Below, in pieces: positions 16,578 through 39,007 of a DNA stretch of 64,000 nucleotides. The position numbers and the translations under genes are program-made. Positions within the stretch are counted from its first letter, which is position 1. Every line of letters begins with the position of its first letter. A model generated the notes under the pieces. The model did not search any database, had not been told where the DNA came from, and saw nothing but the letters and a program-made list of their open reading frames with translations. The stretch is from contig NZ_JAPMLT010000001.1 of NCBI RefSeq assembly GCF_026410385.1, forward strand, positions 682,001-746,000, given 5' to 3'. This DNA is from Tumebacillus lacus. Lineage in GTDB: Bacteria > Bacillota > Bacilli > Tumebacillales > Tumebacillaceae.

Positions 16578-17120
16578 TTACTTCGCTGCGGCAAACAGTT
16601 TAACGAGGCGCGCCACGTCCTTGCCGATCGCTTCAAAGCGCTCTTGCAGCTTTTCATCGGAGAACGTGCCGTCCGGGTTGAACTGGGTGCCGCCCGGTAC
16701 CGCGCCGAAGTGCGGGGACAGGTAGCCATGCAGGGAGCGGATGATCGTCATCATCGTGTTCAGCGTGTTGGTCGCCACCGGGCCGCCGCCCGACGCGATC
16801 AGACCGACCGGCTTGCCGGAAAATTGGTTGTAGCCGACAAAGTCGAGCGCGTTTTTGAACACGCCGGAGACGCTGTTGTGGTATTCCGGCGAGCCGAGCA
16901 GGAAACCGTCCGCTTGATCAAACAGCGCGACAAACTCCGGCACATGGCCTTTGCTGTAGTTTTCCGCGTCAGACGGGTCATAGATGTGCAGCGGCTTTTC
17001 TTTCAGATCCCAAAAGACGACTTCCACGCCTTCGCGACGGGATGCTGCTGCTGCTACTTGGACGGCTTTAGCCGTGATGGAATCCTGTTTCAAGGAACCG
17101 ACGAGAGCTACGATTTTCAT
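16578..17120 (-). CDS. NADPH-dependent FMN reductase / azoreductase-like flavoprotein
   Basis: 180 residues with a flavodoxin-like fold: LVGSLKQDSITAKA binds the FMN phosphate, and GSPEYHNSVSGVFKNALDF is the signature of NAD(P)H:FMN reductases of the SsuE/ArsH/YieF group (seen as GSPEYH and KNALD). Such enzymes reduce flavin, quinones or azo dyes. Start ATG 17120, 11 bases after GGAGG. It has a near-consensus promoter containing a perfect palindrome (17168-17183), so expression is probably repressed until an inducer, perhaps a quinone or electrophile, is present (inference). Confidence 0.9.
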   Translation of the reverse strand: MKIVALVGSLKQDSITAKAVQVAAAASRREGVEVVFWDLKEKPLHIYDPSDAENYSKGHVPEFVALFDQADGFLLGSPEYHNSVSGVFKNALDFVGYNQFSGKPVGLIASGGGPVATNTLNTMMTIIRSLHGYLSPHFGAVPGGTQFNPDGTFSDEKLQERFEAIGKDVARLVKLFAAAK

Positions 17121-17165
17121 CGAAAAAAATACCTCCATGACTGGTGCATGCTATTTTATGTACTT

Positions 17166-17195
17166 AATATACAATTTTGTATAAAAATGTGTCAA
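17166..17195 (-). promoter_or_regulatory. Strong promoter with palindromic operator candidate, FMN reductase
   Basis: Minus-strand TTGACA (17195-17190), 18-base spacer, TATATT (17171-17166). The spacer and -10 contain the perfect inverted repeat TATACAATTTTGTATA at 17168-17183, well placed for a repressor to block RNA polymerase. Confidence 0.7.
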
Positions 17196-17223
17196 GAAAT
17201 TTTTCCCGCTTTTCCGCTCTCTG

Positions 17224-17233
17224 GGGCATACTA
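17224..17233 (+). promoter_or_regulatory. Forespore-type -10 box candidate before small lipoprotein
   Basis: GGGCATACTA lies 33 bases before the ATG and resembles the sigma-F/sigma-G -10 consensus. Near-identical boxes precede two YhcN lipoprotein genes (43247 and 50507). No clear -35 is seen. Confidence 0.4.
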
Positions 17234-17265
17234 CGCAAGATGTTGCCAGGAGGGGAGGTGATCCC

Positions 17266-18084: not shown

Positions 18085-19382
18085 GTCGTGATCAAGCGGC
18101 TGCCGAGCAGCCCGTTGACTTTTGTCTGCCAATCATGAGCGGTCTGAAAATCCCCCGCTCCCTTGCAGATCCGGGCGAGCAGGAGACACGCCCCTTGCCA
18201 CTCCTGCTCCCACCCTGCCCTTTCGAGCAGCCGCACCGCTCGCTCCGCTGCCGCCCGTGCGCCTTTCGCGTCGCCCGCCTGCCACATAGCATCGGCGAGC
18301 GCGCGATACAGCACGCCGCAGTGACGATCTTCCGGCGGCAACTGACAGATCGCCTCCTGCAAGGTACGCAGGGCAGCACCCGGTTCGCCGACGCTCTGCA
18401 CATGTTGCGCGTGCAAGACGAGCACCTGCCCGATCAACTCCGAAAGGCCGAGCGTCAACGACTGGCGTAAACAGTCGGCAAACTCCCGCTCCGCCTCGTC
18501 CCACCGCCCCATTCGGCCCATCAGCCGTGCCTGCCACGCCCGCATCTCGACGGCCGCCCGCCTGTCGCGTCCTTGCTCATACATCGTTCGCGCCGCATCA
18601 AGATGCTCGGCCGCCTCCGACCATCGACCCAGCCCTTCCAGCGTTTGCCCGAGCCCGGCATGAGCAGATGCCCGCAGTCTCCACAGCCCCCGGCTGCCCC
18701 GCAGCGCGTCGACCGCCTTTTGAAACGCCCGCAGTGCCGCATCCGGCCGTCCCGACTGCTGCTCCGCCCGTGCCAGGCCGAGCTGCGCCGACACGATCAG
18801 CTCCCTGTCTGCCGCGAAATGGAAGGACAGATCTTCCCGCACGCTCTCCCACTCGCGCAACGCCAGCCGCCACTCTTGCAAGGCCACCTCCGTCTCGCCA
18901 AGCAGCGCGGCCACCTCGCCAAGCCGGCAACGCCACCGCAACACGTCCCGCGCCTCGCCTTCCCGAACGGCCAGACGCAACGCCTTCTCATACCAAGTCC
19001 TCGCCTCGAACAGCCGTCCGAGCCCGTACAGACAGTCTGCCGCCTGCCCGGTCAACTCACGCAGCGACCAACCCGGATGCGGATCGTCGAGACAGGTGAA
19101 CAGCAGCGGCAACGCCGCCTCCCGATGCCCGAGCGCGAGCAACGACTGCGCTTGTTTGTAACAGGCCGCCCGCTCCTGATCGACCGACTGCGCAGGAAAC
19201 AGTTCCTCCTCCGCCACGCCGAGCCGCTCCGCCAGCATCACCAGCAGCTCGCGGGACGGCTGCACCCGGTCCGACTCGATCTGCGAGATCATGCTCTTCG
19301 AGACCAGCCCCGCCGCCAGCTCGCTCTGGGACATGACAGCGCGCCGACGCAAAGACCTGATCCGCGCTCCCAAAGTAGTCAC
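18060..19382 (-). CDS. HTH-XRE regulator with TPR repeats (RRNPP-like, no adjacent peptide)
   Basis: 440 residues. An XRE helix-turn-helix (about residues 5-60: LGARIRSLRRR, then SQSELAAGLVSKSMISQIES) is followed by eight or nine tetratricopeptide-like helical pairs to the C-terminus. This is the layout of peptide-responsive RRNPP regulators, but no small secreted peptide gene lies directly downstream; the next gene is the convergent lepB. It may act with a peptide encoded elsewhere or be a general TPR regulator. Start: GTG at 19382 behind GGGAGG, since the long upstream in-frame stretch has no similarity and overlaps the divergent gene's promoter region. Confidence 0.8.
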   Translation of the reverse strand: MTTLGARIRSLRRRAVMSQSELAAGLVSKSMISQIESDRVQPSRELLVMLAERLGVAEEELFPAQSVDQERAACYKQAQSLLALGHREAALPLLFTCLDDPHPGWSLRELTGQAADCLYGLGRLFEARTWYEKALRLAVREGEARDVLRWRCRLGEVAALLGETEVALQEWRLALREWESVREDLSFHFAADRELIVSAQLGLARAEQQSGRPDAALRAFQKAVDALRGSRGLWRLRASAHAGLGQTLEGLGRWSEAAEHLDAARTMYEQGRDRRAAVEMRAWQARLMGRMGRWDEAEREFADCLRQSLTLGLSELIGQVLVLHAQHVQSVGEPGAALRTLQEAICQLPPEDRHCGVLYRALADAMWQAGDAKGARAAAERAVRLLERAGWEQEWQGACLLLARICKGAGDFQTAHDWQTKVNGLLGSRLITTKNLRTYP

Positions 19383-19446
19383 GACTGGTAAACCTCCCTT
19401 ATTCTTGATACACTGGTCAGGAACCTGGAAGAAGGAGCCTGCCGAT

Positions 19447-37025: not shown

Positions 37026-37061
37026 CATTCATGCATTGAATCTCTCTAATTAAAGTAAAGA

Positions 37062-37274
37062 TCAGTACGCGTAGACGTCGTAAAGATCGGCCACCGGCAC
37101 CCCCAGTGCCTGGGCGATCGTGGACAGCTTGGTCGCATTGGCGCCGCGCGTCCCCGACTCGATCGCGTAGATGTACGATTGTGAAACCCCAGCACGGTCA
37201 GCTAGTTCTTTCACGCTCAGACCTGTTTCTTTGCGCAGTTTTTTCAACTGCATCCCAATCGTCAAATCACTCAT
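37062..37274 (-). CDS. Small XRE-family transcription regulator
   Basis: 70 residues, a single XRE helix-turn-helix: LKKLRKETGLSVKELADRAG, recognition helix SQSYIYAIE, then SGTRGANATKLSTIAQALGV. ATG 37274, 7 bases after GGGAGG. It lies divergently from the HTH-TPR regulator 37521-38840, with an AT-rich 245-base region between them that contains a 12-base palindrome, so the two may share regulation. Confidence 0.88.
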   Translation of the reverse strand: MSDLTIGMQLKKLRKETGLSVKELADRAGVSQSYIYAIESGTRGANATKLSTIAQALGVPVADLYDVYAY

Positions 37275-37393
37275 TTTGCATCCTCCCCAGATTCCCCATT
37301 ACCCAGATTGCAAGACATTCCCCAATGCTTTACAATCAAGATTTTCATTACACTTATTTTATAACACAATCTGCTGTTTTTTGGTTCAGCGAG

Positions 37394-37405
37394 CTTTAAT
37401 TAAAG
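37394..37405. repeat. Palindrome CTTTAATTAAAG in divergent regulatory region
   Basis: Perfect 12-base palindrome between the Xre gene and the HTH-TPR gene. A related AATTAAAGTAAAG occurs near 37050. Possible operator of the Xre protein. Confidence 0.5.
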
Positions 37406-37459: not shown

Positions 37460-37488
37460 TTGACGAAATAATTCTGGTAGAATACTAT
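37460..37488 (+). promoter_or_regulatory. Promoter of HTH-TPR regulator/peptide operon
   Basis: TTGACG, 17-base spacer, TACTAT, 33 bases before the TTG start codon. Confidence 0.65.
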
Positions 37489-37520
37489 CAAATAGCCACG
37501 TCTTTTTGGAGGTTTTCACG

Positions 37521-38840
37521 TTGCGAGTATGGAACCAACCTCGAGCTGTGCAGATCGGCCAAAACATCCGCGAAAAACGCAAATCCCTCGGTCTTTCCCA
37601 GTCTGTGCTGGCAAAAGGACTGTTTTCGGTCCAGACGATGAGCCTGATCGAACGGGGCAAACTGGGCGCGAACGAGAGCACGCTGGAAGTGCTCGCCGAA
37701 CGTCTGAACTGCTCGGTCGACGACCTGTTGGTCATGAAGCATGACCTGCAGGAAGACTGGCTCCGCGACCTGCTGGAGACCGCACGGCGCTTTCAGACGG
37801 TCGGGCGGCGGGAAAAGGCCATCGAGGTGTTGCACACGCTCTACACCGAGTCATTCGCCAAAAACAGCACGCTCTATCTGCTGGAGAGCTCCTACGGCCT
37901 GTGCCTGCTCTACCATGAAACGGGCCGTCATCGAGCGTCGACCGACTGGGGGCTGGAGGCGTTGCGCTTGCTGCAGCCGGATGAAGATCTGGAACGTGCA
38001 CTCACCCTCTATTCCACCATCGGTCACAACAGCTACATCCTGGGCGAGATCTGGGACGCTTACGAACGGCTGCGCGAGGCGGAGGCGCTCGTCGACCAGC
38101 ACGGTCACATCTCGGAGCAGACCGGCCGCCTCTATTACACGATGGCGATCTTAAAGCAGGTCCTGCGCAACTGGGAAGGCTGCGTCTGGTATTCGACGCG
38201 CGCCTTGCAGATCTTTGAGCAGTGTGACATGGTCGTCTTTATCGGCCGCACGCTGATGATGCTCGGCACCGCCCACAAAAACCTCGGTCGCACCGCCAAG
38301 GCATCGCAGCACATCGAACGCTCGATTCGCATCTTGAGTCAAACATCCGACCTGTCCTCACTCGCCCGTTCCTACCATTCCCTCGCCGAGCTCGAAGTCA
38401 CGCTCGGTCACCTTGACAAAGCCCGCAAAAATTTCCTTCGCTCCCTTACCTACAAACGCCAGTCCCATGACACTGACGGTGCTCTGTACACGTTGCGCTC
38501 CCTCGCTCAACTGGCCCAACAGACCGGCCAGATGGAAGAGGCGCGCCACTACCTGCAGGATGCGCTCGACCGTACCGAAAAGCACAGCCTCGACCTGCAG
38601 CGGGCGGTCACCCTGCGCTGTCTGGGCGATCTGGCACTGCAAGAAGGACTTCTTGACGATTATACACAGTTATATAAACAGGCGATTGAGATTTTCGAGC
38701 GGTTCAGCTACTCCACCGAACTGGCCGAGTCTGCAGAACGCTTGGGCAATTACTACCTAGAGATCGGGCGTGAACGGTTGGCCGTGCCGTACTTGCGACT
38801 GGCAAACCTGCACTACCGCAAGCTTTTACAAAAATCATAA
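37521..38840 (+). CDS. HTH-TPR regulator, candidate RRNPP quorum-sensing receptor
   Basis: 439 residues. An XRE helix-turn-helix occupies residues ~11-68 (IGQNIREKRKSLGLSQSVLA, then TMSLIERGKLG), followed by an all-helical TPR array to the end (for example LDKARKNFLRSLTYKR and MEEARHYLQDALDRT). This is the architecture of NprR/PlcR/AimR-type receptors that bind imported peptides. Start TTG 37521 is 8 bases after GGAGG. A 35-codon secreted-peptide gene starts 20 bases after the stop with its own ribosome binding site, and one terminator follows both. The target genes and even the sign of regulation are unknown. Confidence 0.85.
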   Translation: MRVWNQPRAVQIGQNIREKRKSLGLSQSVLAKGLFSVQTMSLIERGKLGANESTLEVLAERLNCSVDDLLVMKHDLQEDWLRDLLETARRFQTVGRREKAIEVLHTLYTESFAKNSTLYLLESSYGLCLLYHETGRHRASTDWGLEALRLLQPDEDLERALTLYSTIGHNSYILGEIWDAYERLREAEALVDQHGHISEQTGRLYYTMAILKQVLRNWEGCVWYSTRALQIFEQCDMVVFIGRTLMMLGTAHKNLGRTAKASQHIERSIRILSQTSDLSSLARSYHSLAELEVTLGHLDKARKNFLRSLTYKRQSHDTDGALYTLRSLAQLAQQTGQMEEARHYLQDALDRTEKHSLDLQRAVTLRCLGDLALQEGLLDDYTQLYKQAIEIFERFSYSTELAESAERLGNYYLEIGRERLAVPYLRLANLHYRKLLQKS

Positions 38841-38860
38841 GCATTTGGAGGAACGTCCAC

Positions 38861-38968
38861 ATGAAAAAAGCACTCGCATCGCTCGCCATTCTGGCCTTCC
38901 TGTTTGCGATCTCCGCTCCGGCAACGGCCGTCGTCGCCGACCAACCGCCGATCTGGGGCAAACACTAG
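38861..38968 (+). CDS. Candidate secreted signalling pro-peptide (35 residues)
   Basis: 35 residues, ATG 38861 behind TTGGAGGAA. The N-terminus has two Lys and a hydrophobic core, then an APATA signal-peptidase site; predicted remnant after cleavage is VVADQPPIWGKH. Size, export signal and position right behind an HTH-TPR receptor match Phr/NprX/PapR-type precursors, whose C-terminal 5-10 residues become the signal after further cutting and re-import by an oligopeptide permease. The tail, with Pro-Pro and Trp, matches no known signal I recall. Too short for most gene callers. Confidence 0.75.
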   Translation: MKKALASLAILAFLFAISAPATAVVADQPPIWGKH

Positions 38969-38975
38969 GACATAC

Positions 38976-39007
38976 AAAAAAGAGACTCTCTCGAGAGTCT
39001 CTTTTTT
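38976..39007. terminator. Bidirectional terminator after pro-peptide gene
   Basis: GAGACTCTC / GAGAGTCTC stem flanked by A6 and T6; shared with the convergent PHP gene. Confidence 0.9.

Follow-up and report, generated by a model that had tools for sequence, protein, structure and literature searches.

Organization of the locus

The 64,000-nucleotide stretch of Tumebacillus lacus DNA analyzed here (the window) is part of contig C1 in a 4.18-Mb genome available as 26 contigs. A gene for an XRE-type helix-turn-helix (HTH) and tetratricopeptide repeat (TPR) regulator of 439 amino acids, a putative intracellular peptide receptor, was followed after 20 nucleotides by a 35-codon gene for the propeptide MKKALASLAILAFLFAISAPATAVVADQPPIWGKH, which starts with a Sec-type signal peptide as judged by a hydropathy rule. 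The regulator and the small secreted-peptide gene form a genuine pair, and the locus was interpreted as a peptide signalling cassette of the RRNPP type with a probability of about 0.8.

The regulator matched the Pfam families HTH_3 (E = 1.1e-7, residues 16-69) and TPR_12 (E = 1.9e-22), and GGAGG was found by inspection ahead of its TTG start, at 37508-37512. An extended -10 element was recognized before the two genes in all seven family genomes compared below, and a single hairpin was found behind them. The folding energy of a 56-nucleotide stretch at this hairpin was -21.3 kcal/mol (z = -5.3); the hairpin was absent from the output of a simple terminator scanner. The layout given by the original prediction, namely an XRE-HTH and TPR regulator with a 35-codon gene 20 nucleotides on, both served by one promoter and one terminator, was thus borne out by the open reading frames (ORFs), domain matches, ribosome-binding sites and control elements. 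The coordinates are collected in the table.

Features of the regulator-propeptide locus (positions in the window)
Feature	Position	Strand	Basis or remarks
XRE-HTH and TPR regulator, putative intracellular peptide receptor	37521..38840	+	HTH_3, TPR_12, AlphaFold (AF2) model, orthologues; TTG start at 37521, stop ends 38840
Ribosome-binding site GGAGGA of the propeptide gene	38847..38852	+	
Propeptide gene, 35 codons, Sec-type signal peptide	38861..38968	+	ATG at 38861, stop ends 38968
Predicted mature peptide DQPPIWGKH, core [DE][DNQ](E)PP[ITY]W	38939..38965	+	cleavage site inferred
Intrinsic terminator hairpin with A/T flanks, closing the unit	38976..39007	.	fold z -5.3
Extended -10 of the regulator-propeptide operon, TGGTAGAAT	37475..37483	+	TGnTAnA[AC]T in 7/7 upstream regions
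Spo0A-type box TGTCGAA	37420..37426	-	TTTGTCGAA invariant in 7/7, on the XRE-gene strand
Palindrome CTTTAATTAAAG, candidate operator	37394..37405	.	unique exact site in own genome
Extended -10 of the divergent XRE gene, TGTTATAAAAT	37356..37366	-	TGTTATAAA in 7/7; full 11-mer in 5/7
Divergent XRE regulator gene, 70 amino acids, probable target or partner	37062..37274	-	5' of the regulator, opposite direction

Conservation in the Tumebacillaceae

The family set consisted of seven Tumebacillaceae genomes from two genera, the window's own included. At E <= 1e-60 the regulator was detected in all seven and in none of the 54 other genomes (61 searched). Its orthologues were 53-58% identical, and three loci were found in the named records of Tumebacillus avium, T. 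permanentifrigoris and T. flagellatus. The divergent XRE gene was kept in the whole family and was 84-91% identical in the other six genomes. In seven genomes of the order from outside the family, neither the regulator (profile, E <= 1e-25) nor the XRE gene (E <= 1e-20) was found.

A small ORF with a signal peptide lay behind each of the seven orthologous regulators, at a distance of 20 nucleotides in the window and of 14 in the other six genomes. The nonsynonymous proportion of differences in the propeptide ORF was lower than the synonymous one (pN < pS) in 21 of the 21 pairs, with ratios of 0.32-0.89, which points to a real but modest constraint. A loss of the small frame or of its signal peptide beside regulator orthologues, which would have spoken against the original prediction, was not seen: the frame was kept in every genome of the set, each time with a signal-peptide-like start.

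Propeptide and predicted mature peptide

Two signal peptidase cuts were possible in the window propeptide, one after ATA23, releasing VVADQPPIWGKH, the tail named in the original prediction, and one after VVA26, releasing DQPPIWGKH. The latter was preferred because the alignment favours it. Residues P29, P30 and W32 were invariant over the seven propeptide sequences, and the PPxW core sat directly behind the predicted cleavage site, with Ala at position -1. The core read D-Q-PP-I-W in the window, D-D-PP-I-W in three genomes, D-N-E-PP-Y-W in two and E-N-E-PP-T-W in one. The chain beyond it ranged from three residues (GKH) in the window to more than 40 in the relatives, and the tails were P/T-rich in three of the seven propeptides.

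The window propeptide has almost no tail and no cysteine, and its regulator and core are still present. Since the tails are variable and in the window nearly absent, DQPPIWGKH is probably close to the signal. What the alignment shows to be conserved is the beginning of the predicted mature chain rather than a variable C-terminal tail. The signal peptide of the original prediction was confirmed as a signal-peptide-like start in all seven propeptides, but its expectation of a variable tail code was not supported, a core conserved across the family being found instead.

Small ORFs behind other genes

The pairing was compared with chance by a small-ORF filter that required a start, a ribosome-binding site, K/R and a hydrophobic stretch. 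When 62 window genes selected for their length and GC3 were examined, the filter was passed behind one, namely the regulator studied here; on a crude set of ORFs of at least 150 amino acids, spurious ones included, it was passed in 5 of 130 cases. A chance ORF was rejected on the basis of this control and of the conservation in seven of seven genomes.

The search for paralogues gave 32 matches in the own genome, 30 of them with loci, which corresponded to 25 distinct genes; after L027 (164 amino acids) was dropped, 24 remained, the window gene included. Both HTH_3 and a TPR family were matched by 23 of them. A small secreted ORF lay directly behind 8 of the 24 paralogues but behind none of the 61 window genes used as a control (Fisher p = 1.5e-5); L015, with a weak candidate starting at TTG, was not counted among the eight. 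The window's own pair, selected for having a peptide gene, was left out of a second test, in which the proportion was 7/23 (p = 5.4e-5 against 0/61 and 1.7e-4 against 4/129 crude ORFs).

A second pair, L018/L058 (G000:C3:93801-95093, minus strand), was present in all seven family genomes. Its six orthologues (L059-L064) were 56-58% identical to the own one, and the secreted small ORF was placed at -4 to +2 nucleotides. In the propeptides a motif of the kind [FW]xxx[ED]P[LMV], e.g., FINGGEPLSPK, was present once to five times, and these repeats resemble the pheromone precursors with duplicated signals described in PMC11343458. The L018 family search yielded 42 matches, of which 30 with loci were examined; the 23 other paralogues had no convincing secreted small ORF, with one TTG-start candidate lacking a ribosome-binding site. 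Such specificity adds to the credibility of the pair in the window, and the paralogous pairs of the same genome, one of them with repeated motifs, lend support to the peptide-signalling reading that had been proposed from the locus itself.

Several observations were made alongside. Several related paralogue clades had no small secreted ORF in each genome examined. The one paralogue with only one of the two domains, L003 (G000:C22:95078-95839 and its frame, plus strand), had a TPR and no HTH by Pfam, and with a secreted small ORF 13 nucleotides on it showed a Rap-Phr-like layout. Another HTH-TPR paralogue, L011, occupied positions 18201-19388 of the window (minus strand) and gave no hit with the filter for secreted small ORFs. 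Downstream of an ORF at 16644-17261 of the window (plus strand), after 4 nucleotides, lay a small ORF that contains a lipobox-like LAGC and may encode a small lipoprotein.

Control region

The seven upstream regions aligned well. The palindrome CTTTAATTAAAG occurred as a single exact copy in the own genome; at the locus it was exact in five of the seven genomes and carried one mismatch in the other two. The regulon search revealed no second exact palindrome in the own genome, and one-mismatch sites numbered 20 over the seven genomes versus 31 for a reversed control pattern. As the sites were no commoner than those of the control, no distant target was proposed.

The sequence TGTCGAA is given as the core Spo0A box in PMC3485338. 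A tandem Spo0A-type form, TTTGTCGAAAAWTGTCGA, was found exact, and at the locus only, in four of the seven genomes; at the locus it carried one mismatch in the fifth genome, two in the sixth and more than two in the window. A site TTTGTCGGAACATGTCGA, possibly another Spo0A-type tandem box, recurred in six of the seven genomes (G000, G002, G003, G004, G005 and G006). We infer that the main targets of the regulator would be its own locus and the divergent XRE gene, and that Spo0A would supply an input.

Neighbouring genes

In three named Tumebacillus contigs, genes resembling a metallo-beta-lactamase (MBL) hydrolase, thiS and thiE were common to the locus in all three and a serA-like gene in two, the names being assigned by inspection. 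The regulator had no match in phage records at 1e-5. A mobile or phage origin of the locus was rejected on the grounds of these shared neighbours and the missing phage match.

Fold and family assignment of the regulator

An AlphaFold (AF2) model of the regulator was obtained from seven sequences with a pLDDT (predicted local distance difference test) of 82 and a pTM (predicted template modelling score) of 0.61. In it, an HTH precedes about nine TPR hairpins, the helices being counted by eye. The first bacterial receptors among the fold matches were RapI (Z = 23.6) and NprR (5dbk_B, Z = 23.1 over 304 residues, model residues 70-433). Because TPR folds are common, the match is compatible with RRNPP membership rather than a proof of it.

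Three traits of RRNPP/RRNPPA receptors were present: a C-terminal TPR superhelix, an N-terminal HTH, shared by all of these receptors but Rap, and an adjacent gene for a propeptide with an export signal (seven of seven loci). As to the PlcR subfamily, RNPP_C (PF18768) was not among the best 25 of the 26 families of the regulator at E <= 1, and it matched the paralogue L008 below the cut-off. The 20 NCBIfam families listed for the regulator with E <= 1 did not include the AimR family NF038310, and no phage record matched at 1e-5; the regulator was accordingly not placed in the AimR subfamily. No NprR-named profile stood among the regulator matches listed, it not being known whether the libraries hold one. 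The Rap subfamily was excluded as the regulator has an HTH. It was concluded that the cassette probably works like the RRNPP systems, while the matches listed assigned it to no named subfamily.

Proposed mechanism

It was proposed that the product of the small gene would be exported by Sec as a propeptide, and that signal peptidase, together with further proteases in the long-tailed relatives, would free a short peptide starting with D-x-P-P-x-W. The peptide would then re-enter the cell through an oligopeptide permease; twelve matches to SBP_bac_5, of the oligopeptide-binding type, were found in the own genome. Within the cell it may bind the TPR groove of the regulator and alter the action of the latter at the intergenic palindrome, if this is the protein that occupies it. 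The regulator would thereby control both the operon that encodes it and the small XRE gene opposite, by activation or repression. The conserved Spo0A-type box between the promoters may tie the cassette to stationary phase or sporulation.

Several points weigh against this interpretation. The comparison covers only seven genomes of two genera, in which the propeptide ORF is only modestly constrained, as the pN/pS ratios indicate. At least two cysteines occur in the tails of six of the seven propeptides, which is unusual for a linear pheromone. The top structural matches of the model were the TPR domains of LGN/Pins (best Z = 28.0, eukaryotic LGN), above NprR or Rap, and no subfamily-specific RRNPP profile was among the matches listed for the regulator. 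Invariant positions were not enriched at the TPR groove (13/42 versus 65/168 other positions, p = 0.87). The window holds only a degenerate form of the second Spo0A box, and two Priestia plasmid relatives of L019 (19 records matched) had no small secreted ORF downstream.

Some of these points would suit a small gene that encodes a secreted effector, such as a disulfide-containing antimicrobial or surface peptide, merely controlled by the regulator and not its ligand: the cysteines, the variable and in three cases P/T-rich tails, and the lack of excess conservation at the groove. However, it is the short PPxW core that is conserved, and the species of the window keeps the regulator and the core without such a tail or any cysteine. 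Small secreted ORFs in a similar position, but with tails that differ, stand at 8 of the 24 paralogues, and in one paralogue set the motif is repeated, as in known pheromone precursors with duplicated signals. The effector explanation was therefore regarded as improbable. Far less credible still is the view that the small ORF arose by chance or has no function and that the XRE-TPR regulator ahead of it is an ordinary one; the ORF's length of only 35 codons and the modest pN/pS would agree with this, whereas the signal peptide and PPxW in all seven orthologues and the uniqueness of the pair under the filter among the window genes speak strongly to the contrary.

Within peptide signalling, the palindrome may instead serve the small XRE protein, with regulator and peptide acting through protein contacts, in the style of Rap or NprR, or through other, undetected sites. 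The XRE gene is more conserved (84-91%) than the regulator (53-58%), a one-mismatch copy of the palindrome lies by its 3' end, and NprR is described as also regulating sporulation through Spo0F dephosphorylation (PMC9765709). On the other hand, the palindrome lies just upstream of the expected -35 of the XRE gene, as estimated from the spacing, which suits an activator better than an autorepressor. This arrangement is a real possibility, though not the favoured one. The copy in question, CTCTAATTAAAG, was located at 37044-37055, just past the 3' end of the divergent XRE gene.

A more speculative and rather doubtful version of the signalling cassette would be a secreted chain of two parts, in which a conserved N-terminal pheromone core D-x-PP-x-W would be read by the receptor. 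In six of the seven genomes this core would be joined to a fast-changing tail with cysteines and its own job, for example as a surface or antimicrobial peptide closed by a disulfide; the species of the window lacks the tail. The output of such a system might be the one divergent XRE regulator under joint control by the peptide and Spo0A.

Comparison with known systems

The original prediction had likened the pair to NprR-NprX, PlcR-PapR and Rap-Phr. The likeness held for the layout and the probable function, but not for subfamily membership, no specific profile being listed. NprR-NprX of the Bacillus cereus group shares the HTH with about nine TPR hairpins, the role as a transcriptional regulator and the small secreted gene alongside, and by fold NprR was similar at the Z value given above, below LGN. 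It differs in that a tblastn search of plasmids at E <= 1e-5 gave five records, none of Bacillaceae, and the NprX signal differs in sequence from the peptide predicted here. PlcR-PapR of the same group resembles the proposed cassette in autoregulation and gene order. PlcR has a regulon with PlcR boxes, whereas the palindrome here is exact once in the own genome. Rap-Phr of Bacillus shares a TPR receptor and an exported Phr peptide; the regulator matched RapF by sequence (E = 1.2e-5) and RapI, RapF and RapH by fold. Rap proteins have no HTH according to PMC9765709, in contrast to the regulator of the window.

The AloR-AloP pairs of Paenibacillus polymyxa, as described in PMC7425212, likewise combine an HTH-TPR receptor with a secreted peptide gene immediately downstream. 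Genomes carry many such pairs, over 25 in some species, and also receptors without a peptide gene; the systems are linked to sporulation through Spo0E-like genes (PMC7425212). The signal of AloP13 is the C-terminal 6-mer, whereas the start of the mature chain is conserved in the propeptides studied here, and the neighbour is an XRE gene rather than a spo0E-like one.

Significance

No paper on RRNPP signalling in the Tumebacillaceae was found among the open-access papers listed, as judged mainly by title, and Tumebacillus is presumably placed by NCBI in the Alicyclobacillaceae. A large-scale prediction of RRNPP systems has been performed with RRNPP_detector, and the Alicyclobacillaceae are among the families with candidate systems (PMC10075063); the pair may already be listed as a prediction in its supplements. 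Repertoires of many HTH-TPR/peptide pairs are already known from Paenibacillus (PMC7425212). Very probably the pair represents a cell-to-cell signalling system that is new but belongs to a general type already described, and its precursor layout is unusual within that kind of system.

In DQPPIWGKH, or DDPPIW for the relatives, the locus provides a concrete candidate signal that is easy to synthesise, together with its putative receptor, a locus-private palindrome and a likely target. The near-absence of the tail in one species indicates which residues would be the signal. With seven further apparent pairs in the genome, one of them with repeated motifs, Tumebacillus may offer a rich system for studying how many such channels are kept apart in one cell.
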